This document shows positions 2,722 through 64,000 of a stretch of 64,000 bases of DNA, piece after piece (positions within the stretch are counted from its first letter, which is position 1; every line of letters starts with the position of its first letter). Made by a program: the position numbers and the translations under genes. Origin of the DNA: Isoetes taiwanensis. Its lineage: Eukaryota; Streptophyta; Lycopodiopsida; Isoetales; Isoetaceae. The stretch is taken from assembly GCA_021234155.1 (NCBI GenBank), contig JAJEKV010000034.1, positions 9,933,614-9,997,613 of the forward strand, written 5' to 3'. The notes beneath the pieces are model-generated. The model made no database searches. It was not told where the DNA came from and worked only from the letters and a program-made list of their open reading frames with translations.

Positions 2722-5246
2722 TCACCTAATCGGGCGAATGGAATTGTCCCAGTTCATGGCCGACGGGAACTCCACCCCCAAATATTTGTAAGCGGACACC
2801 ACTTCAACATTTTGGCCACGATAAGTGAGGATTGGAGGCCTTGGCTGGCGTGCGGACGATACCAGAACTACCTTGGTTTTGGCTAAGTTGACGCGTATGT
2901 CAGTCACCTGGCAAAATGTGTCCAAGGCATCGAGATGGTGTTGCATGTCTGCCTGAGTGTATGCTAGGAGATCCACATCGCAAGCATAGATCAACTGCCT
3001 GATGATCTGGTATAGGAGGCGAACCCCAGTGCCTCCATTATCAGCGAGCCATCTCTCCAGCTGATCAATATACATGCCAAATGGTGTGGGAGAGAGAGGG
3101 CATCCCTAGCGGACCCCGATACTGCTCTCGAATGGTTGGCCCGCTGGTTGCAGCCGACCAGTGCATGTCTCATATAACCTGTACACCGCGTTCTGCAGTT
3201 CAGCAGGGATGTCTAGCTGCTGCAATCTTGCCCATAGCTTTTCCCGAGGCACAGTGCAAAAGCCTTGGCGAAGTCTACGAAGCAGCAATACAGATCTTGC
3301 CGATGGTTCCTGCTGTCCTCAACCAGAGTCCGCAGTGTGAAGATATGATCTATGGTTGAGTGCCTCGGCCTGAATCTTGCTTGTATGAGTGCTCGCACTT
3401 CTGTTGCCTCTGCCCATCATGTCAACTGCCGCTCGAGGATCCCGGCGAGGAGCTTTGCAAACATTGAGCTGATCACGATGGTCCAGTAATTGGCTGGGCA
3501 ATGTGGGTCTCCTGCCTTGTAGATTGGGACATCCCTGCTAGTCGTCCATTGCAGTAGAAAGCCTTCCTCCAATGCCTTGTTGAACATGTCAGTTGCTACC
3601 GATGCCATGGATGGTCTTGCCCATTTGAGTAACTCTGCCTGCATGCCATCAAGGTCTGGTGCTTTTCTATTAGCTAGACGTTGCAACCTCTGCGCTACCT
3701 CTGCCTCTGTAATTTCTAATACTGGGTCCTGCTAGGGGGGTAATGCCGCCCGTGCACCCGTAAGGTTGTAGAGCTATTGTAGGTATTGCCCCCACTGGTC
3801 TGGAGTGATGTTTCCTGTGGGCGGCACTGGCCTCCCGAGCACTCTTCGCCAGAAGTTCCTGGGATGACGTTCCAGGAGGAAGAACATTTCCTGTTGATGG
3901 GCCGCAATGTACCTGGCCTTTCTAGCCATAAGGAAAGTGCGGTATTGCTTGACTGCATCCGAGTGTAGAGCAGGGCCTTTGACTTGGCAGAGCCAACATT
4001 TGCGTTCTTTGCACTCGGCATCGAACCACTGGTTACGCAGAAAGGCCGTAGCTCTCGAGGTTTGCCGGGGGCGACTTCTTCCAAAACACCTCCCTGCAGC
4101 AGCCCTGAGGACGCCAATAAGCCTGCCTACTTGCTGCTCTAGCATTGAGCATTGTGAGATGCTTGCCAGATTCTCCATAGGCATCTGGGAGTAAGTAGGA
4201 GCGCGCTCATAGTCCAGTCTGAGCTGGGGCATACGAGGAGGTGTTGGACATGCATCTGGAGCAATCTGCCAAGTCAGCTGCAAGTCGAGTGGGCGACAGG
4301 TGGCCTGAGTCCACCTCCTCATCCCTACCAGCTGTTCCCACTCGAAAATATTTGACGAGATGCATGTCCTGCTCAGCCACCAAAACATAGTCTACCACAC
4401 TGGACCCACTTTGGTTTTCCTGCCTGCAAGTGTGCTGGCTGGAGGACGGCCAATGTGCTAGTTCATTGCAAATCACTAGGTCAAAGATACTGCAAAGCAG
4501 CAACAACTGCCTCCCATAGCGCGAGACCTGAATGTCGGCTGATGCCCCTGGCCAAGCTCCTTCTGAAGCGCTCAGTTGCAACACATCATCTGTCAGAAGG
4601 TCAAATCTCATCGGCTGTTCCATGCCAGTGCGGGCATTGAAGTCTCCAATGAGCATGACCCTACCCTCCTGCTTGTGCTGCTGTATGTCATCATATAGAT
4701 CGACATAGGGCTCCAACTTATCCACACCGGATGGTTCTGAAAGAAGTTGCTCTCGGCATGTGGTAAGTAGCAGGCCGCCACAAAGAGAGGGCTAACACTG
4801 CAATACTGCACGCGCACCCATAGGTACCTGTTATGTTTGTCTGTCTTGCACAGGAAAACTGACTGTGCTAGGGCTGTCCAGTAGTAGCAGGCGACTCCTC
4901 CGTGCTCCCGCTTTCCTGTGCATTCATTGAAGACGAAGTAGAGATGGTATCCTGGCAAGTCGGGTAGTCTATGTCCAACATGCCTCCATGTTTCCATGAG
5001 GAAGATGAGGTCCATATCGGTGGCAACTAAGTTGCAACTATCTCCCTTCTGCCATGGAAAGCCCGACAATTCTAAAAGACCATGCGCAGGCACAATCCCT
5101 ATTTGCTGGCAGGAGCTGCAGCAATAAGTTTGGCGGTGGCAGCACAAAGGATGGTGGAGGTGGAGGCAGCATGTGGCATGTTGGCAGTGGCAGCTGAGGC
5201 CATTGTAGCAGGATGTGCAGCTGGGGTCACGGCAGAAGGGCCTCAA
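2722..5246 (-). pseudogene. LINE ORF2 remnant: AP endonuclease plus reverse transcriptase
   Basis: This is the decayed pol-like ORF of a non-LTR retrotransposon, read right to left. The endonuclease half (about 5,080-4,250) shows DLIFLMETW, then VMLIGDFNARTG, VVDYVLVAEQ and DSGHLSP, the family's metal-binding and catalytic blocks. Next comes a linker with WFDAECKERK and NFWRRVLGR (about 4,060-3,830). The reverse transcriptase begins at 3,686 with NRKAPDLDGMQ and IYKAGDPHCPANYW, continues with FRPRHSTIDHIF and CCFVDFAKAF, then RQGCPLSPTPFG and YKYLGVEF. Frame changes near 4,700, 4,300, 3,300 and 3,080 break the protein. The catalytic YADD box reads YACD (IYACDVDLLA, about 2,970), a lost aspartate. 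No C-terminal zinc-binding segment or 3' tail is seen, so the 3' end looks truncated. ORF1 lies directly upstream. Confidence 0.9.
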
Positions 5247-8225: not shown

Positions 8226-11200
8226 ATGTTGCTTGTTTCTGCAGCTCATTTTGCAACTCCTTTTGCAAAGCAAATACCAAAGTCTGATCGCCAGACTTTC
8301 TTACTCCGACTTGATCATTGCCTGGTTTCCTGTCCCCGGTTAATGCCCTGGAATGGAGCAGTTTCGCACTTTCACCATTTTTCTCTTTCACATTCTATAG
8401 AGCCTTGGAGGATTCAATCTCATTTTCCAATTTCATTGCCTTCCCCAGTGCAAGACATGCATTTAGAGGAAATTTTCAAGCGGTGGAATCATTTGGGTCG
8501 GTTTATTATAAACGTAATCAGCTTCTTGCTGGCGGGTTGTATTTCCATATCAGCTGCTCGTGCCTCTGAATACCAGTTACAAGATGCTAGATGGATTGCT
8601 CTGTCAAGTACAACTTTTCGCTGGTTTGGCATGCCTTGAATTTTCTTTTGGTCATTGTGTAGCGCATACATGGACAATATAGGATATAAAAGAATCTGAA
8701 ACATTTATTTTTTTAAGCTGAATCGGTATTTGTATCTCTGCTCCAGGATCAGGTGCTAGTTTTTCAAATAGGAAGCTAGCAATTTCTGACACGAACAAAG
8801 AGAATGTGGCTATGTCTTATTTGCACCTCAAGGGCATAAGTAAATTTTTCGTAAATGCTGCTGTGGCTTCCGATTCCTCGAGTACACAGGTATTGAAAAG
8901 TTTTAGAAGGTTATTAGTAGGACATGCCGGATATTGAAAATTATCGATGATGATGCAACTTACGTAGTCTCTTCCATGACTTGGGGTTTGTAATAAAGTA
9001 TTAAATTCTTTTTCACCTTATTCTTTCCAAGTCTCTCTTGTAAAATGTATAAAACAGCACCCAAATGCCTATAAGTGTATGGCTGCCAATTTTCTTCATT
9101 ATGATTCAAGCTTCTAATTTCCTAAGCATTTGATGTTAATCAAGTCTGGTTACTACTGGCTTTTGTGCAGCAAAACACACAGCCAGTTACAACAGCGTCA
9201 GATAAAAGCATTTCTGATATGCCAAAGGATTCGAAATTTGAAGCCTGGATGGAGGAAATAAGGAAAGAAGCGGCCAATAAAGGCTTAAGGAGAACGACAG
9301 TGCAAGTGGCTCTCAAAGATATCAAATTATCAGAGACGATCATAGATTTGGATAGGAATCAGCCTGAGTTCAAGCTTACAGCAAAAGAATATTTGGCCAG
9401 GTTTTCTTTCTCTTTTTTAGTCATTATGATTACTTAAAAAGGAGTGATGTAATTTTAGGAATAGTACAATCTAGTATGACGTGCTATAGAGGCTGGAGCA
9501 ACTTTATACTTCATTGTTTTTTGAAATCTTTTCTGCTTCACATCCAGATATCAATTGCCTCGTGTGTCTTCTGAGTGAGATGAACAAATATCACCCTGAA
9601 TTGATGGCTCGTTTTCGATCTAGCATAATGGACCATGTTCAAGTAGGAACATAGCAACCAACCTGCTTTTGGGAGGCATGTTTAAATGCCAGAGTGGTAA
9701 CGTGACTATAGTAGTTCTATAAAAGTAAAATGCTTGGATCACATCCAACGCTGATAAAATGTGGCATCCACATTCCTTTTGATATTTATTCCTCCAAATT
9801 CTTACACCTGTTCAATAAGCATATAAAAACGTTTCACATACCTTACCCAGTTTGCATGAGATGAAGATCTAACATCTATCTTTCTTTTCAAAAGGATAAC
9901 GAGGTCTGAATGCATACATGATATTACAGTGTAGGATGGGATGTACAGAATGACCATTCAAATCACACCTGCATCCTCTTGACAGACGTCAAAACTCTAA
10001 CTCAGAATTAGTGTATCGCCAAATCAATGATGAATGATTACAGATTCTGATGCATTGGACTTAAGAGCCTAAATTCTACCAATACAAAAATCTTAAGTCA
10101 GTCTCTTAGACATTATTTGTGGAGGTGTTTAAATTTTCATATTTGTTCTTATGCTTTTGAAATGGCAGAATGGTCAGTGAATATAGAATATCAAAAGGGA
10201 CTGTTGAATTCTTAGATAAACAAAAACTTCTTGAGGACGTCTCTTTGGAATATGGAATTCCAGCGAATATCATAGCAGCAATATGGGGTATCGAAACCAG
10301 GTATTTAGTGTCCTTATAACGCTTAGAGTCGGGATTTTTATTTTATGAACATGGTAAAATGTAGTAGTATTTTTATGTCTTATCAATTTGTTATTTAGAT
10401 AGGTTCTGTTTGTTTTTGGCATCGTCAAGCATGAACATATTAACAAATATAAATTTTATGATACTATCTTGAAGTGATTTTTGTCTTCATCAGTACTGTC
10501 GCTTGATGCCATTATCTGTCTATTGGCTGCAGCTATGGGGGTTTTACCGGATCCTCTGACGTTATTCAAGCCCTTGTCACACTTGCATATTCATCTATCC
10601 AGGTAAGGTTAGCTTTTTCTTCTTTTTACATAACTCGATTGTGAGATAAGAACCGATAAACTTCAGTGTCTTCTGTCTGGTATTAGAATCTGAAGTTTGT
10701 AGGGGTGTCTTGAGCAAAGCTTTGCATTGCACACTAAATTTGAATTGTCAGCAATATCATCCTTTCTGATGGAAAGTTATTGCACACGAAGCATGAAGCA
10801 TCTAGCATACGTACATGCATATTTATATGTGTATGGTTTGAATATGGTCTTATTACATTTAACAAATAAGTCACTTGGCTTTCTAGCCAGGGCGTGCCAG
10901 ATATTTCAAGGAGGAGCTGTTTCATGCCCTCTTCATTCTAGATCAGCAAGAAGCTCCTCCAAGTTTGCAAAGACTTAAAGGTTCTTGGGCTGGGGCAATG
11001 GGACAGTGCCAGTTCATGCCTTCAAGCTATCGAACATATGCAGTGGATTATGACAAGGACGGCTGGAAAGGTACAGATTAAGTACTTCTAGGCTATAGAT
11101 TATCGGCCCTTCATGTGAGGAGGTTAACTATCCCTTGCAGATATATGGAATTCTCATGGCGACACATTTGCATCTGTTGCTAATTATCTGCTAAAGCATG

Positions 11201-11649
11201 GTTGGGAAGTAAACGGGCCCCTAGCGCAGAAGGTGGTGCTCCTTTGCGTGTAGCATGGAAATTCTGTCTAATGGTCTGTGCTGATTCAATTAGTGTTTTA
11301 GGTGTCTGTACCATCCTCCATGGATACTTCTTTGCTTGGTATGTCTGTGAAGAAGACTGTGCAGGATTGGCTCGAGAATCATCAACTAGTGCCAGAAAGT
11401 GGAACATGTCTTCCCCCCAATGTAGAGGCAAGCCTGGTATGTTAAGAGTTGCAGGTAAATTTATTTACGCTGCATCGAAACTTACTATGATGGCGTCATG
11501 TCATGCAGGTAGCACCTGATGGCCCAAGTGGGCCAGCCTATCTTGTTTGTCATAATTTTCGTGTTCTGCTGCGTTATAATACATCCATATTATATGGCTT
11601 GGCAGTATCCGAGTTGGCCTATGAACTTCAAAATAGGGCAAGTTTGTGA
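8226..11649 (+). CDS. MltB/Slt35-like lytic murein transglycosylase, nine exons
   Basis: Bacterial MltB enzymes cut the MurNAc-GlcNAc bond of peptidoglycan and leave a 1,6-anhydro end. Proposed exons: 8226-8607, 8747-8889, 9171-9400, 10169-10300, 10533-10602, 10887-11070, 11141-11232, 11302-11436, 11509-11649. All eight introns are GT-AG and the phases join without a stop, giving 502 residues (463 from the ATG at 8,343). Conserved blocks in order: FEAWMEEIRKEA, LDRNQPEF, AAIWGIETSYGG with the expected catalytic Glu (residue 294), ALVTLAY, RYFKEEL, KGSWAGAMGQ, QFMPSSYRTYAVD, DIWNS, SVANYLLKHGW, GPAYLVCHNFRVLLRYN and a conserved tail ending at the stop. The N-terminal 170 residues are plant-specific: a basic Ser/His-rich stretch, then a hydrophobic run ending ARA-SE, which could be a plastid (possibly bipartite) presequence. 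The family call is strong. The first exon, its start codon and its donor (CAA|GTACAA) are less sure. Intron 7 could instead begin at 11,236. Confidence 0.9.
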
Positions 11650-12560
11650 GCCAACAACTGACTGAACAAAGGATTAGAATCATGGATCAGGAATCTGCGG
11701 CGAATGAAGAGCCAGGACTAAAGCCTCCACCATATTGATTCTTTAGTTACCTCCTTCGAGTTAAGTAATGACTGAAGCTCTAACTGGGGGAGGTAAAAGA
11801 GGGCTTGATTTGCTTGGTTTGTCAAGAGAAAGCAGTCCTATTACGGGCTATTGCCTAATAAAAAGTTCAAACATGTATTTTAATCATATTAGACTGTCCA
11901 GTGCTCTACTCTGCCATTTGGGCTTTTTTGGCTTTTTTTTTATTACAGATGATCTGCAGGAGAATCTCTTGAGGGATGAATAAAGCAATAATTTACATGT
12001 TACCATAAATAATCCAGCACTGGGCAACAAATATTTTTGCAGGGGATGGAATTGAGCAGAGACTTATTTGAACACTAAATGTATTACAAATTGTCAGCAA
12101 CAGGCAATGTGCTAAAGAATTCTTCAAACCTTGCAAATAAATTTGCAAGTAGTCGTTTTTTATGTATTGTTGATTTTTTGGTTGGCCGAAGGGCAAACCC
12201 TGGGTCAAAATGGGAAATTCCCTGCACATTTCACTTGGAAGGTGGAGATTTCGGGACAAGCTCATTTGAGGGCCACGATTGAATATGGACGAGTAAGAAC
12301 ATGGACGAGTAAGAACGTAAAAGTGTAAAAAACTGCTGAGCTTCCATTTGCACAGCCAGTTCGCTGTGAAGCATGCAGAAGTCGGATGGGCATAAGCAAA
12401 TCTAGAGTTTTTGTAAGACAGAAGAATTAAAGTTTTGGGTACTTGGCAGTCGATTTTCCTCGAGATGTGGATTGCTTAGTATATAGGCAATTGCAATCTC
12501 AGCTTTCGGCGTTAAATAACAGGGTTAAATAACAGGGTTTCGGAGGCCTCGGAGATTGTG
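11650..12560. other. 3' flank of the transglycosylase gene
   Basis: Probably the 3' UTR, then AT-rich intergenic sequence. No recognisable coding region. Confidence 0.4.
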
Positions 12561-12569
12561 ACAATCAGG

Positions 12570-14530
12570 ATCAGGGCAAGCAACAGGCATTAGACAATGT
12601 TCTTTTCGAATTCATGCTTAAAACTATGTCGTCAGTATACAGCAGAATTGAAACTAGAATGAAATTCTTGTTACGTGAAGCTTTGGGTAGGAGCAAAGTG
12701 TGGGCCAATCTCACCTCCACCACCACCTCTTCAAGAGGAGGCATTGATAGACCAGCCTGAACTTGAAGCAACACCAAGGGCACCGGAAAACAAGAAAAGG
12801 AAGAGGAGGCACAGGAGAAGCCCTAGCCCTTCAAGCTCCAATTCAGGTAATAAAGATAGTGGATCATATAGCAGCTCAGAGAGTGAGTCAGATAGCTCTC
12901 AGGAAAAGCAGAGTAACCGCAAAGCAGAGGACTACCAGAAGTTGGGACAATTTTCGGGAAAAGACAGCTCCATTATGGAAGCCGAGGCATGGCTTGATGA
13001 GATGGAAGAATTTGGGAACCCTTCTGGTATGAAGGACAAGGATATTGACAAAGTGGCAACTGCAAACCTTATATGGTGGAAGGGTTATGCAAATTCCAAT
13101 AAGCTGAAAAGGAGCAATAAGCTGAAAAGGAGCAACTGCAGGTTCAGAATTTTCAAACCCCGATCCCATTTAAGTAGGCAAATGTGTTCTACCGACTTGA
13201 TCAAAGGTACTTGTCAGTGTCTAAGTACACAGAAGAGTTCATGAGGCTAAGACTGAATGTACCAAGGATAATGGAAAGACAAGCAGTGGATGGGTACAAC
13301 AAAGGCCTGAACAACAATATCAAAAGGCTTGTCCGAGCCATTAACCCGAGGACAATAGGGGAGGCAGAGGATAAAGCATTGAGCCTAGAATAAGTACCCC
13401 ACACACCAACACAAAAGTAGTCCTACAACAAAGGAAAGGCAACGGGGTCTTACACCCCGAAGCAGCAAGCTACCCAACCGGCGAACTAGCAGTCACAAGG
13501 CAGAGGAGACATGAAATTTTCATCCAAGGACTAACAGGGCACCATGTTCATCCGTGGGAAGATCAGTTAAACATTTCTTGGACAGCATCCCTAAGGAGAA
13601 GAGCGAAGAATGCATCAGGAAGAAGCTATACTTTAGATGCTTCCAGCCAGGATAACGCACACACAACTACCCATTCATCATGCAAGTGCCTTTGGCAAAA
13701 CTCATAGGCTGGAAATTTCCCACAGAGCGGGACGAGGACGATGATGAGGAGGAGGAGGCACGCGACTATGTTGATGGTGAGTGTAAAATTTGTGCAGCAA
13801 TTGAGATCGATAATGTTGGAAGTCAGTCTACAGTCATTTCAGCAGAGGGGATAACAGATGATAAGCCCTATGTAGTCCTTATAGATACAAGCTATTCGCA
13901 CAACTTTGCATCTCCTAGATTGACAACTTTATTGAAGTCTAAGACCCTTAAATTGAAGCCAAGACCGGTGAACATGGCAAGTGGAGCTATTCGCCATATT
14001 AAGGAAAGAAGGGTCAACTTGGACATAGGTCTAAATGAAACCAACTTGACCATGGGTGCGGAAGTAATGGACATTAGTAAGTATGATCTTATAGTTAGCA
14101 TGGAGTTTCTGAAGCCAACAAAAGTAATGATTGACTGCGATAAGCATGAGATTTCGAGCATGGCATTTGATGGCAACCGCTTTGTGGTCAAAAGTAAGGA
14201 AATTCTTTCTGTAATACAATGCATGTTTTTGAAGCAGTTGCATAAATGCATGATGAGGATGAGGTTGAATACATCCTTAGTCTAGAGATTGTTGAGCCAG
14301 ACTAGAAGCATCAGAAAGACTTAAACTTGAAGCAATTGCCTAGGGCAGTTGCTAGGCTAATTAAGAAATTTTATGGTATCTTTTCGGATGAAATCCATGA
14401 GCTACCGCTATATAGAGGCATGGAATGTGATATCACTCTAGCACAAGATGCTAAGCCTACTAGTAAGGCTTCTTATAGGATGAGTACCTTAGAGCTAACA
14501 GAGCTAAAGAAGCAGTTGTAGGAGATTTTC
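12570..14530 (+). pseudogene. Ty3/gypsy LTR-retrotransposon remnant (gag, protease, start of RT)
   Basis: Three collinear pieces of a gag-pol polyprotein. Gag (12,675-13,393): a Ser/Glu-rich acidic segment, then EDYQKLGQFSGKD and AEAWLDEMEE, then a frameshifted RYLSVSKYTEEFMRLRLNVP and IKRLVRAINP. Protease (about 13,860-14,190): VVLIDTSYSHNF, where the usual D-T/S-G-A triad reads DTSY, and KYDLIVSMEFL in place of the YDVILGMDWL-type block. RT entry (14,327-14,521): LPLYRGMECDITL, AKPTSKASYRMS and ELTELKKQL. It then stops, with no YxDD box, RNase H or integrase, and I found no flanking LTRs. A truncated, inactive copy. Confidence 0.85.
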
Positions 14531-23983: not shown

Positions 23984-25260
23984 GACGTAATGATTTGGTC
24001 AGTCTTGAGACCAATAAGTTTGTTTATCTTGCGGTTCTTAAAGCAAGTATTGTAACGTTGACTCCTCTACATGGCAGGCTTCTCCACGATCAGATCCTTA
24101 CAAGTGGATTTCAGATGGACATTGTGTTGGGAAGTAGCCTTGTGGACATGTATGCAAAATGTGGGAAATTGGAAGAGGCTTACAAGTCGTTCCTTAATCC
24201 GCCATCTCGGAATGCAATTTCTTGGGGAGCAATGGTTGCGGGATCGCCCAAAGATGGTGAAGGCTTTTCTACCTTAGTATGTTATGAAGAAATGCAAAGC
24301 ATGATGGGATCAAGCCGGATAAAATTACGTTCCTTAGCATTCTAAAAGCATGTGACCATATATCCGCTATAGAACAGGTAAGTGCATCCATGAGCACATT
24401 ATTCGTAATGGACTTCAGTCCGACCTTATTTTGGGGAATACAGTCATTGACATGTATGCAAAGTGTGGTGACATGGATCGTGCAAGCGAGGTTTTTAATA
24501 AGTTGCCATCTAGAGATGTAGTTTCATGGACCGCAATGATTGCAGGATACGTTCAAAGATGGAGAAAGCACTTTTGTCAGAGACTGCTTTTTGATAACAT
24601 CTTTGGAGGATGGTGTAAGGCCAAATAGATTCACATTTTCTAGTGTTGTGAAGGCATCTATAAGCATGGGCATCACACAAGGGAGGCGTATTCATGATTT
24701 AATAGTACAAAGCGATTTAATCGACATTGTTTTGGGCAAAGCAGCCTCGTGGACATGTACACAAAATGTGGAAACTTAGAGGAAGCACGGAAGGTATTTG
24801 ACAAATTAAAAACCAAGATCGGGTGTGTGGGGCACCATGATTGCCGGATACAACCAAAACAACGGCTCGGCTTTGCACCGGATTGTGTTAATGATATGCG
24901 ACAAGAATGCATAAAACCGCACAAATTCATTTTGCTAAGTGTTTTGAGTGCATGTGGGACTATAGGTGCAACTACAAAAGCCGGATGCCTTCATGAACAT
25001 ATCTTAAGCGAAAAGCTTCAACATGACAATGCTCGGGGAGTTCACTAATTGAGATGTATGCCGGTCGCGGAAACTTGACCGAATCATATGACATTCTTCA
25101 CAAACATGGAAAAGAAGACGTGTGGGCATGGGATGCATTGATTGCGTGGTGCTCACAACATGGGAATGCTCTTCTTGCATTCGATTGTTATCTTTGAAAT
25201 GCAAAGGAAGGCATGCAACCCACAAAGTTCACATTTGTGAACAGCCTAAAAGCATGTAGT
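23984..25260 (+). pseudogene. PLS-type pentatricopeptide repeat (PPR) pseudogene
   Basis: Several PPR motifs run in order but in changing frames: GRLLHDQILTSGFQ and SSLVDMYAKCGKLEEAYKSF (about 24,075-24,200), NTVIDMYAKCGDMDRASEVF with LPSRDVVSWTAMIAGY (about 24,435-24,550), VRPNRFTFSSVVKAS and GRRIHDLIVQSDL (about 24,615-24,720), DMYTKCGNLEEARKVFDKL (about 24,750-24,810), then KPHKFILLSVLSACG (about 24,915-24,960). These are P, L and S motifs of a PLS protein. Frameshifts near 24,340, 24,580, 24,750 and 24,830 and truncated motifs rule out a full-length product. Confidence 0.9.
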
Positions 25261-26298: not shown

Positions 26299-26383
26299 TC
26301 CGACTTGCCGGATTCGAACCAGCGACCTAAGGATATCTGAAGAGCACTACAGTCCTCCGCTCTGCCAACTGAGCTAAAGTCGG
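26299..26383 (-). tRNA. trnY: tRNA-Tyr (GUA) with a 12-nt intron
   Basis: A full cloverleaf folds on the minus strand: acceptor CCGACTT against AAGTCGG with discriminator A, D-arm GCTCAGTTGGCAGAGC, anticodon loop CTGTAGA with anticodon GTA, and T-arm CTGGTTCGAATCCGG. Twelve bases interrupt the anticodon loop one base after the anticodon, the canonical intron site; nuclear tRNA-Tyr genes of plants carry such an intron, which places this in nuclear rather than organellar DNA. A T6 terminator follows. The gene lies 90 bp upstream of, and divergent from, the PPR gene at 26,473. Confidence 0.96.
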
Positions 26384-26472: not shown

Positions 26473-28092
26473 ATGGTGTCATTTAATTTCAGACGGCAAG
26501 TTCTGACTTGCACCGGGCAAGATTATCTCAACAACGCCGTTGATTCCACGCTTTGTCTTATGGTATATGCAAAGGAGCCTGGATCTCTGAAACGTATAGT
26601 AATTCCTCAATGGATAAGTTTTCGGGTCTATTTCTCTACAATTCAAGGGGAACTATGCAGGGAAGATTTAAACGTGCAGAACCTTACAGCTATATTAAGA
26701 AAATGTGCAAAGGACAAGGCCCTTGAACAAGGTAAGCGGGTTCATGATTTAATTCTAAAGAATAGGTTAGAAAGACATACTCTCTTAGGCAATTTTCTTG
26801 TGCATATGTATGGTAAATGTGGGGCAACAGAACAGGCAAGGGAAGTGTTTGAAAATATTGTCAACAAGAACTTTTTCTCGTGGAATATTATGATTGCAGC
26901 ATATATCCAATACGGCCAGATAGAAGAGGCACTTCGGGTCTGGGAAAGAATGCCTCTGAAAGATGTGGTTTCATGGAATGCAATGATTGCTGCATATGCA
27001 CAACAGGGCAATCTAAAGGGTGCTCTTCAACTCTTCCAGCAAATGCCCAACAGAAATGTGATTTCATGGAATTCCATGATTTCTGCTTTTGTAGGCCAGG
27101 GTTTCCTAAAAGAGGCTTGGCACCTTTTTTGCCAAATGCCTGAGAGGAATGTTGTCTCATGGAATACTATGATAACAGCATATGCAGATCTAGGAAAGAT
27201 AAAAGAAGCCACTAATCTCTTTGAACAAATGCCCGAACGGAATATTGTCTCATGGAATGCCATGATTGCAGCATATGCTCAAAGGGGACAATTGGATGAA
27301 GCAATGCAACTTTTCGAGGATATGCCTTATCGGAATGTAGTTTCATGGACTACGATTCTGACAGCCTATGCTCAACAAGGATTGGTCAGTAAATGCCTTG
27401 CACTCTTTCAAGCAATGCCTCAGCGTAATGTCGTCTCTTGGAATGCCATGCTTGCAGCCTATATGCATCAGGGGAGCCTCAAGGAAGCGTTGAATCTTTT
27501 CCAGCAAATGCCACAGCGAGACATATTCTCATGGAACTCGATGATAGCTGGATACGGTAGGCATGGGCATCTTGATCAGGCATGCCAATTTTTTGAACAA
27601 ATGCCTGAACAAGATGTGGTATCCATGAATGTAATGATTGCAACATATGCACAACATGGGCTTGGGAAAGAGGCACTTGACATGTTTCTAATGTTTCACA
27701 TTAAAGGAATAATGCCTAATGTAGTGAGCTATGGTAGCATCCTTTTTGCTTGTATTCATGACTTTCTAGTAGATGAGGGCTTCCACATTTTCTCTATGAT
27801 GTCTCAGTTTCATCCAGTTGTGCCTACAGTAGAACATTACAACTGCTTGATGGATCTTCTTGGGCGTACAGGATGGGTAGATCACGCAGAGACTTTGGTC
27901 AATAACATGATACATCCCCCCGACGCCATGTCCTGGACAAGTTTATTAGGTTCCTGCACCATATATCATGCAGTAGACATGGCAACTCGTGTGGCCCAAA
28001 ATGCATATGAGGCAGATCCAGGAAATGGTGCTCTGTATGCATGCTTATCAAATGTCTATGCTGCAGCTGGTTGGTCATACGATAAAACATAA
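26473..28092 (+). CDS. S-motif-rich PPR protein, probable organellar RNA-binding factor
   Basis: PPR proteins bind single-stranded organellar RNA, one motif per base. The 539-residue frame begins with about 60 residues of basic, hydroxylated leader that could target an organelle. A degenerate L/P region follows (GKRVHDLILKNR, LVHMYGKCGATEQAREVFENI), then eight consecutive 31-residue S motifs (VVSWNAMIAAYAQQGNLKGA type, residues about 138-385), one longer motif (NVMIATYAQHGLGKEALDMF), NVVSYGSILFACIHD, and an L2/S2-like pair leading into the E region (DAMSWTSLLGSC, LSNVYAAAGW). The frame stops inside the E motif. A better end is possible: donor at 28,074 and acceptor at 28,155 keep phase and add MYSEDMVELGII and SESSKWVFEI (28,156-28,261), which resemble the end of an E domain, giving 568 residues. 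No DYW deaminase domain is seen. Confidence 0.93.
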   Translation: MVSFNFRRQVLTCTGQDYLNNAVDSTLCLMVYAKEPGSLKRIVIPQWISFRVYFSTIQGELCREDLNVQNLTAILRKCAKDKALEQGKRVHDLILKNRLERHTLLGNFLVHMYGKCGATEQAREVFENIVNKNFFSWNIMIAAYIQYGQIEEALRVWERMPLKDVVSWNAMIAAYAQQGNLKGALQLFQQMPNRNVISWNSMISAFVGQGFLKEAWHLFCQMPERNVVSWNTMITAYADLGKIKEATNLFEQMPERNIVSWNAMIAAYAQRGQLDEAMQLFEDMPYRNVVSWTTILTAYAQQGLVSKCLALFQAMPQRNVVSWNAMLAAYMHQGSLKEALNLFQQMPQRDIFSWNSMIAGYGRHGHLDQACQFFEQMPEQDVVSMNVMIATYAQHGLGKEALDMFLMFHIKGIMPNVVSYGSILFACIHDFLVDEGFHIFSMMSQFHPVVPTVEHYNCLMDLLGRTGWVDHAETLVNNMIHPPDAMSWTSLLGSCTIYHAVDMATRVAQNAYEADPGNGALYACLSNVYAAAGWSYDKT

Positions 28093-36129: not shown

Positions 36130-37790
36130 CTATTTGTTTGTGGATCTTTTCTTGTGTTTAAGGGGAGAGACAAAACGATCAACATGATGCGGGCCCCACA
36201 AAGAATCAATATAGTGAAAACACCACGGGGCAAGGGTAAACTCAGCAGATTGAGGAAGGCGAGAAAGATAATCGGCCCACTCGTTTTGGGAACGCGGAAT
36301 CCACACAGGATCTAAGGAGACAGAAAAGTGAAGACAAATTAGGAAGATCTCTAAGGTGAGAAAATGAATATCGGGCGAAGAAGAACCCCCTTTTTGGAGA
36401 ATGGTGGCAACGTTCAAATTATCCCCCCGAACAGTGACCAGGCGAGCATGGAGAGAAGGCAAGGCGGAGCGCAAGACTTGATAGAAAGCGAAGAGTTCGC
36501 GCCAAGTGGAAGAATGAGACAGTTCCGACTCGGAAAAAAGGCCAACAAAATCCACGCGGTTCAGTCCCGGGAGAAGGAGCCACCCCCCCAAAAACCAAAT
36601 GAACTGGCATCGAAACCAAGGACGGCAGAAGGACGATGGGATGGGGAAATAGGGCGAAAACCCAAAGACGAGGCGATGGATTCCCATAAAACAGTTTCCA
36701 TGCGGGCTAAAGAGGATAAAGAAATAGGAGCATCCCAGTGCCAAGGTTGAATAAGGCGATAAGAAAAAAAGGTTAACGCAGAGACAAGGGAGCCGAAAAC
36801 AATGCAAAGGGACTGGAGAAAGCCCAAGAATTTGGCGAGGTGACGTGAGGTAAGATGAGAAGAGGAAAGAAGCGAAGAGAAGAGGTGAAAAAACTTAGCT
36901 AATTTCTTGGAAGATAGGCAAATAACCATGGCAGAAGGATCAAGGAGAAAACCGAGGAAAATAGCACGGTGGGACAAACGCAGATGACACTTAGGCCAAG
37001 CAATGAGAAAACCAGCAGATTGCAAATCAGAAATGATGCGAAGTTGAAGAGAACTAGGGTCCTGCTGAGTGTTAAAAAGGAAATCATCCATATAAGGGGT
37101 GCAACGAATACCGGCCGCTCGCCAATGGCGGACTAAAGGGCGTATCAATTTGGTAAAGACAAAAGGAGCAGAGGCCAGGCCAAAAGGAAGCATAGTGAAG
37201 ACAAAAAAGTGGGAGTCAAACTGAAAACCCAAAAAGGTGTGATGAGGAGGCCAGATGGGAACATGGTGGTAATCGGATTTCAGATCCAAGGTAAAAAGAA
37301 AATCCTGGGGTTGAAGGACAGCCAAAGCATCGGAAAGCGACTCGTAACGAAAAGAAGGGACAGACAAAAAGGAGTTAAGATAGCGCAAGTCGAGAATCAA
37401 GCGGAACTTGTAGTCGCCCTTGGGTACAACGCCACGGGGTGAGCAGAAAAAGGGACAAGATGGGACTTGCATAACACCACCAGAATGCAAAAGATCTTGA
37501 ATGGCAGAACGGGCAAAAGGAATATGGGAGGACAGAGAGGAAAGGTTCGGGCAAAAATATGGTTGAGATGGGGGTCCCTGGGCCCAAGGAAGAGCATAAC
37601 CATACTGGATCCAAGACAATACAAGAGGGTGCACAGAAATAGAGCGCCAAAAAGGTAAAGATGCAAAGAGACGCCCACGCACAGGCAAGGTCGCATAGTA
37701 GGAATCAAGAGCCACCGGATCGAAGGGAAGGTGGGGTAAAGCAGAGGTAAAAAGTTGGCAATCTGCAAAAAGAGACTCGTTAGAAAACAA
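36130..37790 (-). pseudogene. Reverse transcriptase-RNase H of the DIRS element
   Basis: The 409-residue frame from 37,790 carries the RT: VVPKGDYKFRLILDLRYLNS, LFTLDLKSDYHHVPI, FTMLPFGLASAPFVFTKLIR and the catalytic YMDDFLF, followed by AIFLGFLLDP and the helical LTSRHLAKFLGFLQSL connection. RNase H begins VLGFDASSFGFWGGG, then the frame breaks at a C7 run (about 36,585 on the plus strand) and continues in the next frame (to 36,130) with STWRELFAFY, VRGDNLNVATIL and IPRSQNEWADYLSR, supplying the remaining acidic residues. It ends HYIDSLWGPHHVDRFVS, the conserved tail seen between RNase H and recombinase in DIRS-like elements. The homopolymer frameshift could be real decay or a sequencing error. 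Confidence 0.92.
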
Positions 37791-43427: not shown

Positions 43428-46400
43428 CTATTCAAAGGCACCACTTGCCTCAAGGGTGCTCATGTTGTCATATAATTCCATAATTTCTGCTCTTTCTTTC
43501 CACACCATCTTGATGTATGAGCTGAGTTTATTGTATGGGACATTCCAGAGATCTTTCAAGCTTGTGCAGTCTATATCAAAATTGGTTCTAATGCTCTCAT
43601 ATGCTGGGCATTCTAAGAAAGTGTGCGGTTCAGTTTCTATCTTAGGATCCGTAAACGGGACAAGTACCTTTGATGTCGTGGTGTGCCATACCAACGACTC
43701 GTTTCCACATGCAAATGATGAGAAGAAGTGCGTAGCTGAGAGATCATAACTCGACTGCGTCTACTAATGTTAGATGTCAAATATGGCTGCTCCACATAAG
43801 TAGACAGGTCACATATTTCAGCCCACAACAAGTTCAATACACCCTCTGTGACTTTTTCCCTTACCTCTTTCAATTTTCTTGAAGAAGGCCATGACGGGCC
43901 GCTAAGATGCCAACTTTCAGCCCACTTGCATACTTGGTAGTACCACCCTTTGCTCTCAGAGCATAAGATAGCTTGCATGGGGAGGCGGTCTTTTTGAGAA
44001 GCTTTTCACACGATTGATATATGTGATTGTACAACAAAGGGCTTCAATCTCTAAAGGAAGCAATCCCGCTACGCTAGCATAATGATAAAAAGGCGTTTGA
44101 GACTTTACTCCAAGTTCTTCCATCAAATATCTCTTCAGCACTTTTTCAATGGATGCCCAGCTTTGCTTGGATAGCCCAGGTCATACTGGGCACCCGTATA
44201 GGACTACGGGTTTCACCATTACAGCATAAAGAAGTCTCCTAGTTTCCCAATGCCACAAATTATTAGTACGACATGAATGAAACATGCTATATAATGCTCT
44301 AAGCCCCCCAGAAGCACGCTTTGAGGCAGCCTTCTTCCAATTGTAATTGTCTGAGACCTCAATACCTAGATATTTGTAATCAGATACTTGTTCAATAGCT
44401 GTCCCTCCTACCAAAAAGCTGAATTTTTCTCGTGTGCCCAAGACCATTATTTTGGATTTTGAAGCGTTGATGGTCATTCTTTTATGAGTACAAAACTCAT
44501 GTAAAACATCTAGGTGTCTTTGGAGTCCCTCAGCTGTCTTAGAAATCAGCACTATATCATCTGCAAATAGGAGGACTTGGATCAGGTAGCATCCCAACTG
44601 AGCGCCAACTCCCCCCAATCTAGCAAGCCAGTTCTCTACCTCATCAATGTATAATCCAAATAATGTTGGCGGCGAGGGGACAGCCCCCTTCACTCCAATT
44701 GTGCTTAAGATCTTCTCTTCTCCCTCAAAAGGAAAGGAAAGTTCTATCAGGACTTGCCTATATAGACATGCTCTTTGCTTGTCCGAGTTCTAAGGAACTT
44801 CTATAATTTCGAAGTGCGGCTTCTAAATCGCCTCTGTCTACTCTGGTCAAATGCTTTAGTAAGATCAATAAAAAGCCATGAACCTCCAGGTTGCCAAAGC
44901 CCTTTGCACCTTCAGCTATGACACGAGGGGACACTAGGTGGTCAAGTGTTGAGTGTCCACGCCGAAGCCCGCTTGACCATAAGCCCGCACACATCATTTA
45001 CATCAGCCCACTCGAAATCTTTTTTTTCAAGCATTGCTGCGAATATTTTTGAAAAAATAGAACTAATCAAGATAGTTCTATAATTGCGTATGTCATCTTT
45101 GTCGCCGGCTTTAAAGATTGGAATTACTCTGCTCAAGTACCAATCTGCAGGAAATTCTCCATTTATTAGAGAATTATTGCATAGGTCCAATAGTCTTTCA
45201 TGTGTTGCATCACCCCCCCATTTAATGAGCTCTGATGAGAGACCTGTAACATCAAAAGCCTTGCCATTCTGGAGTCCCTGTAATGCTTGCTTAAGATCGG
45301 ATATAGAAAATAGTGATGCAGAGCTTTTGGGATCTAATGTCATGTTAGCGCAATCTGGGACATGATATAATTCCGAAATCCAGCCCAATAAGTCTTTTCT
45401 TGTGATGTTTCCGACCTCTGCCACCTTTGCAAGACGCTTCCAAAATAACCTTGGATAGATCGCAATCACGGACTCTGTTTTTTGGTGGTGTACACGTAGC
45501 CAATCCCGTTTCTTCCGTTTGACTAGCTTTTTATAATGTTTCATTGCCCCTTCCTTGTCTTGCGCATTTTTCAAAGCAGACTTAGCCTGTGTGCATTCCT
45601 TGTCATACCATTTTTTATTAATATAGCCTGGCTTAAATGGTTTGGTATGTCCAAATACTTGATTTGCTGACTGTAGAAGGACTTCTTTCAGTTTCTCATA
45701 TCCATCCATCAGGTCCACTGGCCAACTTGCATTTTCAATAGTTTTTTCAACTGTCATTTCATATGTCTCTGCCAATGCGTAATCTACCTTTAGTTTTTGC
45801 TTGAAATTACAGTCTCTGTGAAGGCAGTTTACGTGCATATTCAATCCGAGTGCCAGAGGAGAATGATCTGAGTCACAACACATCCCTTGAACCTCAAAGT
45901 CTTTGATATAATGCAAGTGTTCTGGGCTTCCAAGCAAGAGGTCTACTGTGCTGCTACCGTTTGGCTGGAAGCAAGTGTATCCACAAGACTTTGGAAAAGT
46001 TTGAATGCCATTGTATACAATCAGGTCCAGCGATTCACACAAGGAGATCACATGGTTTCCCATCAAATTTGATCTTAGATCAAGGGTTTGCCGGGGCCAA
46101 GCATATGTAGGATCTGAATGTTCTAGCAGCCATAGGTCATTTCCTTCGCCACTCAACAAAGATGCCTGTCTATTCCCCAATCTTCCATTGAGGTCTCCAA
46201 TCACAAATGCTGGCCCTTTTGTCTTGAAAGCAAAGAAGGTCGGACTTAAAGAGCACAGAATGGATCATTGGCATCCAATCCTGGATGACTATAAATGCGT
46301 GATGGGTAGGGATCTAACGGGGCAAAATAGGCAATGGCAATGTAAATTTTCCCCTGTAAGCATATCCAAATATATTGGTTTATTGAGACATTATGCAAAA

Positions 46401-58817: not shown

Positions 58818-61800
58818 GGCCGATCACATGCAGTTGAGAACGCGAAGCAAGGGGAACTGACGGAATGGAGTTTGGACCTGTACTCCTCCCGTTGTGGCAG
58901 TTAGAAGTCAAGGGCCGCTTTGCGCAAAGCTTAAAGACATTCGTGAATTCGTAATTAATGCATAGTACGGACTTAAATTCTGATTTTTTGTCGCCTAGCT
59001 TCCTAAGTCATCGCCAACATACAGGCCAACTTTCAAAAAAATTTTGGATAAGGTTTAGATCAAATAGTTTGCACTAGAACGGTCAGGCAGCTTTGTTGTT
59101 GGTAGAGCTGGCACACTTGCCCAAGTCAAACAATGCCAGGACCTTGCAAGGCCTCCTCATTAGAGGGGAGAGTCCGAACCCGTGAGGCGAGCCCCAAAAG
59201 CTTCCCCGAGGGCGCCTTTCCGGCGGCCTTCCCGGCGGGGTGTACGCTAAAGACCACACTTCCGGATCTCGGTTCCCGTATCCGACCGTTGAATCCTTTG
59301 TTCCGGGAACCTGGTCCGAGAAGGTCCAAAAATCCAACATCCGTCCAGGAGAACATATCAAACCATGAAAAGTGGCGTCCCCGGGCGGCGGTGTAGAAAC
59401 CAAAGTGTTTTGTCGTTCGGACATTGCGGAGGTTCAAATGCCGATCCGACTTCTGGCCACATCGTCACGGAATGCCAAAATTACCCTAGGGACCAAGTTA
59501 CCGGTCGGTTTTGTAAAAGAAAGAAACACTTACGCCCTACATTGTAAAGATTCGCCAGCCCACCTCCTAGGCCAATTGATTTCACGAGTGTGTTGCACAT
59601 GAGATAGTTTGGCTTCTTCGAGAAGGGGGGGCTTCTGGCCACAAAACTTGGTCCCTAGGGCAATGTCGGCGTTCGAGTCCATTGGCAGACGCAGATCACT
59701 GTTCGAGAGGGAAGTTGCCGGTCCGTCGCCCGGGGGCCGGGAGAGGAATTTTTGGGGCAAGGCGCTTCGGGTGGTTTTTAGGGTCCGTGCTCGGCGTCAA
59801 CACCCCCTCTACCTCAAGACACGGCGCCAAGGTCCTAGTCAAATCGACAAGGATAGAGCCTCGAAACGTAAACCCTATGAGTTGCGGGTTCTAGCGGGTT
59901 TTGCGTTTTGGGTGCCGAGTTTTGGTCTTTTGCACTTGGGACGTGGCGATCACATGCAGTTGAGAACGAAGCAAAGCGGGCCCGGCGGAATGGAGTTTGG
60001 ACTGTACTCCTCCGTTGTGGCGGTTAGAAGTCAAGGGCCGCTTTTGCAAGAGCAAGACATTAAGTAAATAAGTAATTAATGCATAGTACGGACTTAAATT
60101 TGATTTTTTGTCACTAGCTTCCTAAGTCATCGCCAACATACGGGCCAACTTTCAAAAATTTTGGATATGGTTTAGATCAAATAGTTTGCACTAGAACGGT
60201 CCGGGCAGCTGTTGTTGGCAACCGAGTTGGCACACTTGCCCAAGTCAAACAAGGCCGGGACTGGTGCAAGGCCTCCCTCATTAGAGGGGAGAGTCCGAAC
60301 CCCAGGAGGCGAGCCCCAAAAAGCTTCCCGAGGCAGCCTTTCCTGGCAGCGCTCCGCCGCCGGGGGGGGGTACGCTAAAGGCCACACTCCCGGATCTCGG
60401 TTCCCGTATCCGACCGTTGAATCCTTTGTTCCAGGAACCTGGTCCGAAGGTCCAAAAAATCCAACATCCGTCCGGGAACATATCAAACCGCAAGCGTCCC
60501 GGGCGGCGGTGTAGAGAAACCAAAGTGTTTTGTCGTTCGGACATTGCGAGAGGCTCGAAATGCCGATCCGACCGCCACATCGTCGGAATGCCAAAATTAC
60601 CCTAGGGACCAAGTTACACCTCGGTTTGCAAAAGAAAGAAACACTAAGCCCTACATTGCAAGATTCCAGCCCACCTCCTAGGCCAATTGACTACGAGTGT
60701 GTTGCACATGAGATAGTTTGGCGCTTCTTCGAGAAGGGGTGGGCTTCTGGCCACAAAACTTGGTCCCTAGGGCAATGTCGACGTTCGAGTCCATTGGCGA
60801 GCGATGATCACGGGCCCGGGAGAGGGGAAGTTGCCCGTCCGTCGCCGGGGTGGCCTTTGGGAGAGGAATTTTGGGGCAAGCCGCCTAGGGTGGTTTTAGG
60901 GTCCGTGCTCTCGGCGCCAACACCCCCTCTACCTCAAGACCGCGCGCAAGGTCCTAGTCAAATCTGACCAAGGATAGAGCCTCCGAAACGTAAACCCTAT
61001 GAGTTGCCAGGTTCTAGCAGGGTTTGCGTTTTGGGTGCCGAGTTTTGGTCTTTTGCACTTGGGGCGTGGCCGATCACATGCAGATTGAGAACGCGAAGCA
61101 AAGCGGGAACCGGCGGAATGGAGTTTGGACCTGTACTCCTCCCGTTGTGGCGGTTAGAAGTCAGGGCGCTTTTGCGTAGCAAGACATTCGTAAATTCGTA
61201 ATTAATGCATAGTAACGGACTTAAATTCTGATTTTTTGTCCCTAGCTTCCTAAGTCATCGCCAACATACAGGCCAACTTTCAAAAATTTTGGATATGGTT
61301 TAGATCAAATAGTTTGCACTAGAACGGTCCGGGCAGCTTTGTTGTTGGGCAGCCGAGCCGCACACTTGCCCAAGTCAAACAAGGCGGGGACAGGTGCAAG
61401 GCCTCCTCATTAGAGGGGAGAGTCAGAACCCCAGGAGGCGAGCCCCAAAAAGCTTCCCGAGGCAGCCTTTTACGGTAGCCACCGGGGCGACGCTAAAGAC
61501 CACACTCCCGGGATCTCGGTTCCGTGATCCCACCGTTGAATCCTTTGTTCCGGGAACCTGGTCCTAGAAGGTCAAAAAATCCAACATCCGTCCGGGGAAC
61601 ATATCAAACCGCTGGCGCCGCCCCGGCGGCGATGTAGAAACCAAAGTGTTTTGTCGTTCGGACATTGGAGGTTCGAAATGCCGATCCGACTTCGCCACAT
61701 CGTCCAGGAATGCCAAAATTACCCTAGGGACCAAGTTACACCGTCGGTTTTGTAAAAGAAAGAAACACTTACGCCCTACATTGTAAAAGATTCGCCAGCC

Positions 61801-64000
61801 CACCTCCTAGGCCAATTGACTACAGTGTGTTGCACATGAGATAGTTTGGCTTCTTCGAGAAGGGGTGGGCTTCTGGCCACAAAACTTGGTCCCTAGGGCA
61901 ATGTCGACGCTCGAGTCCATTGGCGAGAGCCGGATCCACGGTTCCGGGAGAGGGGAAGTTGCGCGTCCGTCGCCGGGTGGCCTTCTGGAGAGGATTTTGG
62001 GGCAAGCCGCTTCGGGTGGTTTTTAGGGTCCAGGTGCTCTGGCGTCAACACCCCCTCTACCTCAAGACGGCGCAAGGTCCTAGTCAAATCGACGAGGATA
62101 GAGCCAAACGTAAACCCCTATGAGTTGCGGGGTTCTAGCGGGGTTTTGCGTTTTGGGTGCCGAAGTTTTGGTCTTTTGCACTTGGGGCGTGGCCGATCAC
62201 ATGCGATTTAGAACCGAGAAGCAAAGCGGAACCAGCGGAATGGAGTTTGGACTGTACTCCCCGTTGTGGCGGTTAGAAGTCAAGGGGCGCTTTTGCGTGT
62301 AGCAAGACATTAAGTAAATTCGTAATTAATGCATAGTGCGGACTTAAATTCTGATTTTTGTCAGCTAGCTTCCTAAGTCATCGCCAACATACGAGGCCAA
62401 CTTTCAAAAATTTTGGATATGGTTTAGATCAAATAGTTTGCACTAGAACGGTCCGGGCACTGTTGTTGGGCAGCGAATGGGCACACTTGCCCAAGTCAAA
62501 CAAGGCGAGGACCGTGCAAGGCCTCCTCATTAGAGGGGGAGAGTCCAGAACCCGGGAGGCGAGCCCCAAAAGCTTCCCGAGGCAGCCTTTTCAGCGGCGC
62601 CAAGGGGGTGCGCTAAAGACCACACTCCGGATCTCGGTTCCGTGATCCGGCCGTTGAATCCTTTGTTCGGGAACCTGGTCCGAGAAGGTCCAAAAAATCC
62701 AACATCCGTCCGGGAGAACATATCAAACCGCTGAAGCCCCGGGCTGGCGACGGTGTAGAAACCAAAGTGTTTTGTCGTTCGGACATTGCGAGGGCTCGAA
62801 ATGCCGATCAGACTTCGCCACATCGTCCGGAATGCCAAAATTACCCTAGGGACCAAGTTACCGCGATCAGTTTTGCAAAAGAAAGAAACACTTACGCCCT
62901 ACATTGCGGTATTCGTGACCACCTCCCTAGGCCAATTGACTACGAGTGTGTTGCACATGAGATAGTTTGGCGCTTCTTCGAAGGGGTGGGCTTACGGCCA
63001 CAAAACTTGGTCCCTAGGGCAATGTCGACGTTCGAGTCCATTGGCGTAGAGCGGATCTGCCGGAGAGGGAAGTTGCCGTCTGGTCGCCGTGGCCTTCTGA
63101 GAGGAATTTTGGGGCAAAGCCGCTTCCGGGTGGTTTTAGGGTCCGTGCTCTGGCGCCAACACCCCCCTCTACCTCAAGACACGGCAAGAAGGTCCTAGTC
63201 AAACCGACAAGGATAGAGCCTCAAACGTAAACCCTATGAGTTGCCGTGTTCCAGTGGTTTGGCGTTTTTTGGGTGCCGAAGTTTTGGTCTTTTGCACTTG
63301 GGACGGGGCGATCACATGCACATGCTTGAGAACGCCGGGCGTTTTGAACCGACGGAATGGAGTTTGGACCGTACTCCTCCGTTAGGCGTTAGAAGTCAAG
63401 GGGCTTTTGGCAGTAACAAAGACATTCAAATTCGTAATTAATGCATAGTACGGACTTAAATTTGATTTTTTTGTCGCCTAGCTTCCTAAGTCATCGCCAA
63501 CATACAGGCCAACTTTCAAAAAATTTTGGATATGGTTTAGATCAAATAGTTTGCACTAGAACGTCCGGCTGACTGTTGTTAGGCGTTCGAAGCCGGGCAC
63601 ACTTGCCCAAGTCAAACAAGGCCAGGACCGTGCAAGGCCTCCTCATTAGAGGGGAGAGTCCAGAACCCAGAGGCGAGCCCCAAAAGCTTCCCGAGGCTGG
63701 CCTTTTCGGCAGCGGCTCCTGGGGCGACGCTAAAGACCACACTCGGATCTCTTGCCTCGTGATCCGAGATTTGAATCCTTTGTTCCAGAACCTTTGGTTA
63801 AGAAGGTCCAAAAAATCCAACATCCGTCCGGAGAACATATCAAACCGCTGGCGCCCCTGCAAGGGCGACAGTAGAAACCAAAGTGTTTTGTCGTTCGGAC
63901 ATTGCGGAGGCTCGAAATGCCGATCAGACTTCGCCACATCGTCCGGAATGCCAAAATTACCCTAGGGACCAAGTTACACGGTCGGTTTAAAAAAGAAAGA
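58818..64000. repeat. Tandem satellite, unit about 1.12 kb, about 4.6 copies
   Basis: The landmark CGGAATGGAGTTTGGAC recurs at 58,861, 59,986, 61,114, 62,236 and 63,353, giving periods of 1,125, 1,128, 1,122 and 1,117 bp, and the array runs off the window. Units agree throughout, differing mainly by 1-4 base indels and substitutions. Each holds an exact 16-bp inverted repeat, CCCTAGGGACCAAGTT against AACTTGGTCCCTAGGG (59,484-59,499 and 59,645-59,660 in unit 1). No reading frame is conserved between units, so it is unlikely to code. I see no rRNA similarity. Confidence 0.95.

Follow-up and report, generated by a model that had tools for sequence, protein, structure and literature searches.

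In the nuclear genome of Isoetes taiwanensis, one functional, single-copy gene probably encodes a lytic transglycosylase of plastids. The enzyme belongs to the SLT_2 (GH103) family and MltB_2 subfamily, falls in a streptophyte clade together with moss proteins, and would remodel plastid peptidoglycan. The gene lies in the window, i.e., the whole stretch of 64,000 nucleotides that was analyzed. The preliminary description had read nine stop-free exons with GT–AG introns and a continuous phase, and this structure was rebuilt at 8226–11649. The features are given below, with exon support counted in 16 relatives chosen from the 22 at hand.

8226–11649, + strand: lytic transglycosylase gene, nine exons and eight GT–AG introns in continuous phase, 502-aa product without internal stop
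8226–8607, + strand: exon 1, residues 1–128, presumed targeting region; matches in 0 of 16 relatives
8747–8889, + strand: exon 2, linker; matches in 0 of 16
9171–9400, + strand: exon 3; matches in 15 of 16 and in the genome-wide profile search
10169–10300, + strand: exon 4, acceptor 10169 preferred and 10178 possible; matches in 16 of 16 and in the genome-wide search
10533–10602, + strand: exon 5; matches in 16 of 16
10887–11070, + strand: exon 6, with GSWAGAMGQ and QFMPSSY; matches in 16 of 16
11141–11232, + strand: exon 7; matches in 16 of 16
11302–11436, + strand: exon 8; matches in 14 of 16
11509–11649, + strand: exon 9, with GPAYLV, LLRYN, and the stop codon; matches in 15 of 16
11857–11862, + strand: AATAAA, possible polyadenylation signal by consensus only, about 210 nt 3' of the stop codon

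The nine-exon structure is a real intron-containing nuclear gene of the plant. The chosen model has 1509 coding bases with no frameshift or stop and eight usable intron pairs; from exon 1 to exon 9 the introns measure 139, 281, 768, 232, 284, 70, 69, and 72 nt. Splice-site combinations in the vicinity allow 768 stop-free nine-exon models, and the one adopted ranks second by score, 0.3 points under the top-ranked model, from which it differs solely in the exon 4 acceptor (10169 versus 10178, three residues). It was preferred because bacterial and plant relatives support it. The stop codon ends at 11649, and the SLT_2 domain starts at 9234, within exon 3. The 5' end, with its ATG at 8226 and an in-frame stop immediately upstream, is predicted and unproved, exons 1 and 2 (about 175 residues) being matched by none of the 16 relatives.

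An MltB/Slt35-type enzyme had been proposed from motifs, and profile comparison bears this out. The 502-aa product matches SLT_2 at 325.2 bits (curated cut-off 24.3, E 4.4e-97) over profile positions 1–291 of 292, which rules out a chance match, and it scores 301.7 bits against the MltB_2 subfamily (TIGR02283, NCBIfam), above the cut-off of 248.45. Scores for the strict MltB equivalogs of NCBIfam lie below their cut-offs (226 versus 281.4 bits for TIGR02282 and 158.4 versus 449 bits for NF008029), so the protein is not assigned to MltB in the strict sense. By its sequence, the protein is a member of the SLT_2 (GH103) family and MltB_2 subfamily with predicted lytic transglycosylase activity. 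The five motifs first noticed were all located in the product, starting at residues 292 (GIETSYGG), 351 (GSWAGAMGQ), 361 (QFMPSSY), 464 (GPAYLV), and 476 (LLRYN). Two features bear on the active site and its surroundings.

10293–10295, + strand: codon of Glu294, aligned with the SltB3 glutamate
11046–11070, + strand: acidic loop DYDKDGWK(D)

Glu294 is invariant across 21 aligned sequences, and the SltB3 glutamate with which it aligns is the catalytic residue of that enzyme. Across the same 21 sequences, D373, D375, and D377 of the acidic loop are invariant; the loop resembles the EF-hand-type loop of Slt35. The solved structure of SltB3 from Pseudomonas aeruginosa (5anz, 5ao8) is matched by the Isoetes protein at 211 bits. 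The two proteins share their active-site blocks, and the fold is probably shared, to judge by the model of a Selaginella relative (not of the Isoetes protein itself), which matches the SltB3/Slt35 fold. SltB3 is bacterial, whereas the plant-clade proteins have about 130–240 additional residues ahead of the domain. Slt35/MltB of E. coli (1qus, 1d0k) has just 27% identity to the Selaginella model.

A search of the genome (1,658,258,908 bases in 1110 contigs) with the SLT_2 profile gave five matches, all within this gene, which spans 9,941,839–9,945,262 on contig C1039 (matches at window 9234–11619), and the gene is single-copy as far as this search reaches. The same genome keeps part of the peptidoglycan synthesis pathway, namely, MurB, MraY, and class A PBP, which makes a role in plastid peptidoglycan plausible and is consistent with the link to a plastid wall drawn in the preliminary description. 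MurB is represented by a profile match of 104 bits on C1029, where a single counted stop precedes an open exon piece and further pieces around the match read as open-frame MurB exons. Three tandem MraY-like exon sets lie about 31 kb apart on C1030 (10,238,507–10,302,614); each match falls below the whole-protein cut-off because the exons were scored separately, and weaker MraY matches, with stops, are found on C1032 and C919. Near-identical transglycosylase exons of a class A PBP are present on C1052 (4,880,504–4,888,259) and C73 (187,027–188,010) (L097, L098, L110–L114). On C1052 they are followed, in minus-strand order and in open frames, by HTTLDLGMQE, GSTFKPVVYL, and GKTGTSDGY, motifs that characterize the transpeptidase part of such proteins. 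None of these three motifs occurs in the 29 kb scanned on C73, and this copy may be truncated, since they were found on C1052 only. The PF00905 search matched no plant exon, its sole match being a decayed bacterial copy, and nothing in the genome matched MurJ.

A moss enzyme offers the model for what the Isoetes protein may do. PpMltB of Physcomitrium, called like the Isoetes protein after bacterial MltB, is reportedly nuclear-encoded, plastid-localized, and active on peptidoglycan. In the 2021 moss work of Utsunomiya et al., MltB is said to have given a plastid GFP signal and zymogram activity, and its knockout to have had fewer chloroplasts. The comparison is between a moss and a lycophyte whose enzyme is known from sequence alone; the mosses Ceratodon and Sphagnum share the land-plant set with the Isoetes protein, and the Physcomitrium sequence itself lies outside the comparison. 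In its available part, PMC13075712 (citing Utsunomiya et al. 2021, doi 10.1007/s11103-020-01081-0) names MltB and VanY as important players in the division of moss chloroplasts. The early view that a lytic enzyme would be something new among plant peptidoglycan genes was overstated: a report on the importance of moss MltB for dividing chloroplasts already existed, as did one on DipM. DipM matters in plastid division in Cyanophora and Physcomitrella and is, like the proposed Isoetes enzyme, a nuclear-encoded peptidoglycan hydrolase serving that process, but it has LysM and M23 peptidase domains, is probably of cyanobacterial descent, and belongs to a separate family (PMC4015805, available part). 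No further study of a plant lytic transglycosylase or MltB was found in the open literature, a scope outside which most subscription journals fall.

Other lycophytes have the same domain: Selaginella P0001 shows 55% identity over 60% of the query and Diphasiastrum P0121 shows 58% over 54%. Both are annotated as uncharacterized or hypothetical, and their N-terminal extensions are not confidently alignable with that of Isoetes.

The proposed mechanism, including import, topology, activity, and the role in division, is drawn by analogy from the kinship with moss MltB. The precursor would be synthesized in the cytosol and directed to the plastid by its long N-terminal extension, within which one stretch stands out.

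8502–8558, + strand: hydrophobic stretch, residues 93–111, proposed envelope anchor; Kyte–Doolittle 2.18, reached in 16 of 500 shuffles

Through this stretch the enzyme would be anchored in the envelope, its catalytic domain turned toward the intermembrane space. There, Glu294 would cut the MurNAc–GlcNAc bond of plastid peptidoglycan without water, a mode of cutting expected from family membership, and leave 1,6-anhydro-MurNAc ends. The wall would thereby be opened for remodeling during plastid division. Each of the 16 full-length clade members has between 0 and 4 acidic residues among its first 50, and 14 have a hydrophobic stretch ahead of the catalytic domain that reaches a Kyte–Doolittle value of at least 1.8 by this simple measure; for only 10 of the 16 do fewer than 5% of shuffles yield such a stretch. 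Short, partial, or badly predicted sequences (P0004, P0010, P0012, P0016, P0121, P0122, and P0140) were left out of the hydropathy count. The pattern suggests plastid import followed by envelope anchoring, with the enzyme facing a wall between the membranes. In moss, plastid peptidoglycan is located between the envelope membranes, according to the available part of PMC12681378.

Some observations count against the plastid reading: exons 1 and 2 have no support from relatives, MurJ is unmatched, PF00905 matched no plant exon, and the MltB equivalog cut-offs are missed. The enzyme could be active on another target, being secreted or vacuolar and either attacking bacterial walls in defense or trimming another polymer. 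The N-terminal 190 residues are weakly conserved among clade members and could carry a different signal, residues 93–115 by themselves resemble a signal peptide by eye, and plastid localization is only predicted. This alternative is nonetheless unlikely given that the family, among the matches listed, ranges within the streptophytes, and plastid peptidoglycan genes are reportedly retained by several members of that group (PMC12681378, available part). The report of moss MltB in chloroplast division (PMC13075712, likewise) and the presence in the Isoetes genome of most of the synthesis genes tested also argue for the plastid.

It is more improbable still that the gene is a relic whose frame is intact yet which is silent or dispensable in Isoetes. 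The branch of the Isoetes protein is long (0.49–0.54), and of the 79 columns conserved in at least 17 of 19 other plant-clade relatives, eight are changed and 71 kept. However, the Selaginella branch is equally long (0.57–0.59), and every one of the 45 columns invariant among those 19 relatives, the catalytic Glu included, is retained in Isoetes. The open coding sequence of the chosen model and the usable splice sites of all eight introns also speak for a working gene.

The relatives of the enzyme form a plant clade. A single-sequence protein search, from which the best 120 of 7323 matches were listed, has among the named members of its 17 best rows Selaginella, Marchantia, two Riccia, Ceratodon, Klebsormidium, Mesostigma, and Spirogloea; Sphagnum and Chlorokybus appear at bacterial level (268 bits, the best bacterial-type row having 278). 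Mesostigma, Spirogloea, and Chlorokybus were assigned by identifiers. A profile search with 20 sequences (best 120 of 7359 matches listed) placed 21 rows at 440–691 bits, the next row among the matches listed having 428 bits. Of these 21, 19 were already in the profile, and the new ones are Diphasiastrum and Closterium P0122. A second Closterium model, P0140, ranked among bacteria at 411 bits. Both public Closterium models appear to be wrongly predicted: P0122 repeats catalytic blocks, and P0140 is fused to an ABC-type protein.

The quick tree of 113 rows joined the 22 plant rows in one set (SH-aLRT 100) and put it beside three alphaproteobacterial rows and one gammaproteobacterial row with weak placement support (77). 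The careful tree of 36 rows, built with plant and bacterial homologs, split the 22 plant rows from 14 bacterial ones with support of 100/100, in agreement with the preliminary description's case for a plant gene. The clade spans Mesostigma, mosses, liverworts, and lycophytes, and the Isoetes protein sits within a land-plant group of 16 rows (95/89). As to its nearest sister, the test neither establishes nor rejects a clade with Selaginella (AU p 0.49) or one with both lycophytes (0.48). Roots are midpoints, used for drawing only; Closterium P0122 was left out of both trees for its repeated blocks, and the Physcomitrium protein is absent. A bacterial contaminant, or DNA recently inserted from a bacterium, has next to no likelihood and is rejected, contamination being a reading that the preliminary description had also argued against. 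The non-plant rows among the matches listed (41–48% identity) and bacterial-looking DNA elsewhere in the assembly (contig C1032) might be cited for it; against it stand the eight introns, the 15.2 Mb contig, whose part in the window also carries a PPR gene and what reads as an intron-bearing tRNA-Tyr, and the common clade with algae, bryophytes, and lycophytes.

One plant clade fits a single origin in streptophytes. In a genome scan, the best 80 loci among the matches listed are all bacterial, 38 from Alphaproteobacteria and 26 from Gammaproteobacteria, and no cyanobacterium is named among them or among the named rows of either protein search; bacterial rows were sampled by best match, with no deliberate cyanobacterial sampling. 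No bacterial donor is named here, because placement support is 77 and sampling favored close matches. For moss peptidoglycan enzymes, diverse and mostly non-cyanobacterial origins have been published (PMC9434261, available part). Seed plants, ferns, hornworts, chlorophytes, and glaucophytes are missing from the named rows of the matches listed in both protein searches, although the same database includes many angiosperm proteins and others from Taxus, Cryptomeria, and Ginkgo-type entries. These lists are suggestive of absence from seed plants and go no further, since 12 of the 21 top rows are named and only the best candidates were scored. A tentative and on balance doubtful proposal is that the enzyme entered once, in a streptophyte ancestor, from a proteobacterium and not from the cyanobacterial ancestor of the plastid, and that its range is narrower than that of synthesis: streptophyte algae, mosses, liverworts, and lycophytes would have retained it, and seed plants would have lost it, including those that still have the Mur set. 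One streptophyte acquisition, with no seed plant named among the matches listed, is possibly new.

With this gene, a quillwort joins the lineages in which synthetic genes are accompanied by a peptidoglycan-cutting enzyme, and the relatives found extend from streptophyte algae to bryophytes and lycophytes. If the absence from seed plants is true, it would serve as a testable marker of the point at which remodeling of the plastid wall ceased, and it would bear on the peptidoglycan claimed for angiosperm plastids (PMC9954125, available part). If a single entry and loss in seed plants are both true, losing the glycan cutter, rather than synthesis, would mark the end of the plastid wall as a remodeled, dividing sacculus.

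Elsewhere in the assembly, about 54 kb of an 18 Mb contig (C1032) form a stretch of decayed bacterial DNA (~7,078,163–7,132,000; L087–L090, L096, L103–L105). Its fragments, which carry stops and frame changes, follow the order of a dcw cluster (rsmH, ftsI, murE, mraY, murD, ftsW, murC, murB, ddl, lpxC), with slt and argB pieces in addition. All nine typed pieces match the fitting Pfam family, seven of them above the cut-off. At least 43 kb of N lie to the left, up to 7,078,162; the right flank has no N and is plant-like in composition from ~7,132,000. Either bacterial DNA was inserted into the nuclear genome long ago, or the contig end is chimeric and unpolished. A homopolymer deficit test cannot single out raw-read errors as the cause of decay, because native bacterial control loci show the deficit too.

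Within the window, the gene's neighbors are plant-type rather than bacterial only. An intronless PPR open frame of 539 aa lies at 26473–28092 (+), and its best matches are land plants (Ginkgo-type ids, Selaginella, conifers, angiosperms). Close by, at 26299–26383 (−), is an 85-nt tRNA that reads as an intron-bearing nuclear tRNA-Tyr(GUA). Another, shorter open frame that resembles a PPR gene, at 23995–24345 (+), has no Pfam match. A tandem array, rich in GC and built of units of about 1.12 kb, occupies 58850–64000, with at least four copies up to the window end and no Rfam match. Retroelement pieces at 2722–3075 (−), 4207–4725 (−), 13680–14285 (+), 36561–37790 (−), and 44181–44693 (−) match reverse transcriptase, endonuclease (weakly), and aspartyl protease, and an uninterrupted (AG)68 microsatellite lies at 229–364.
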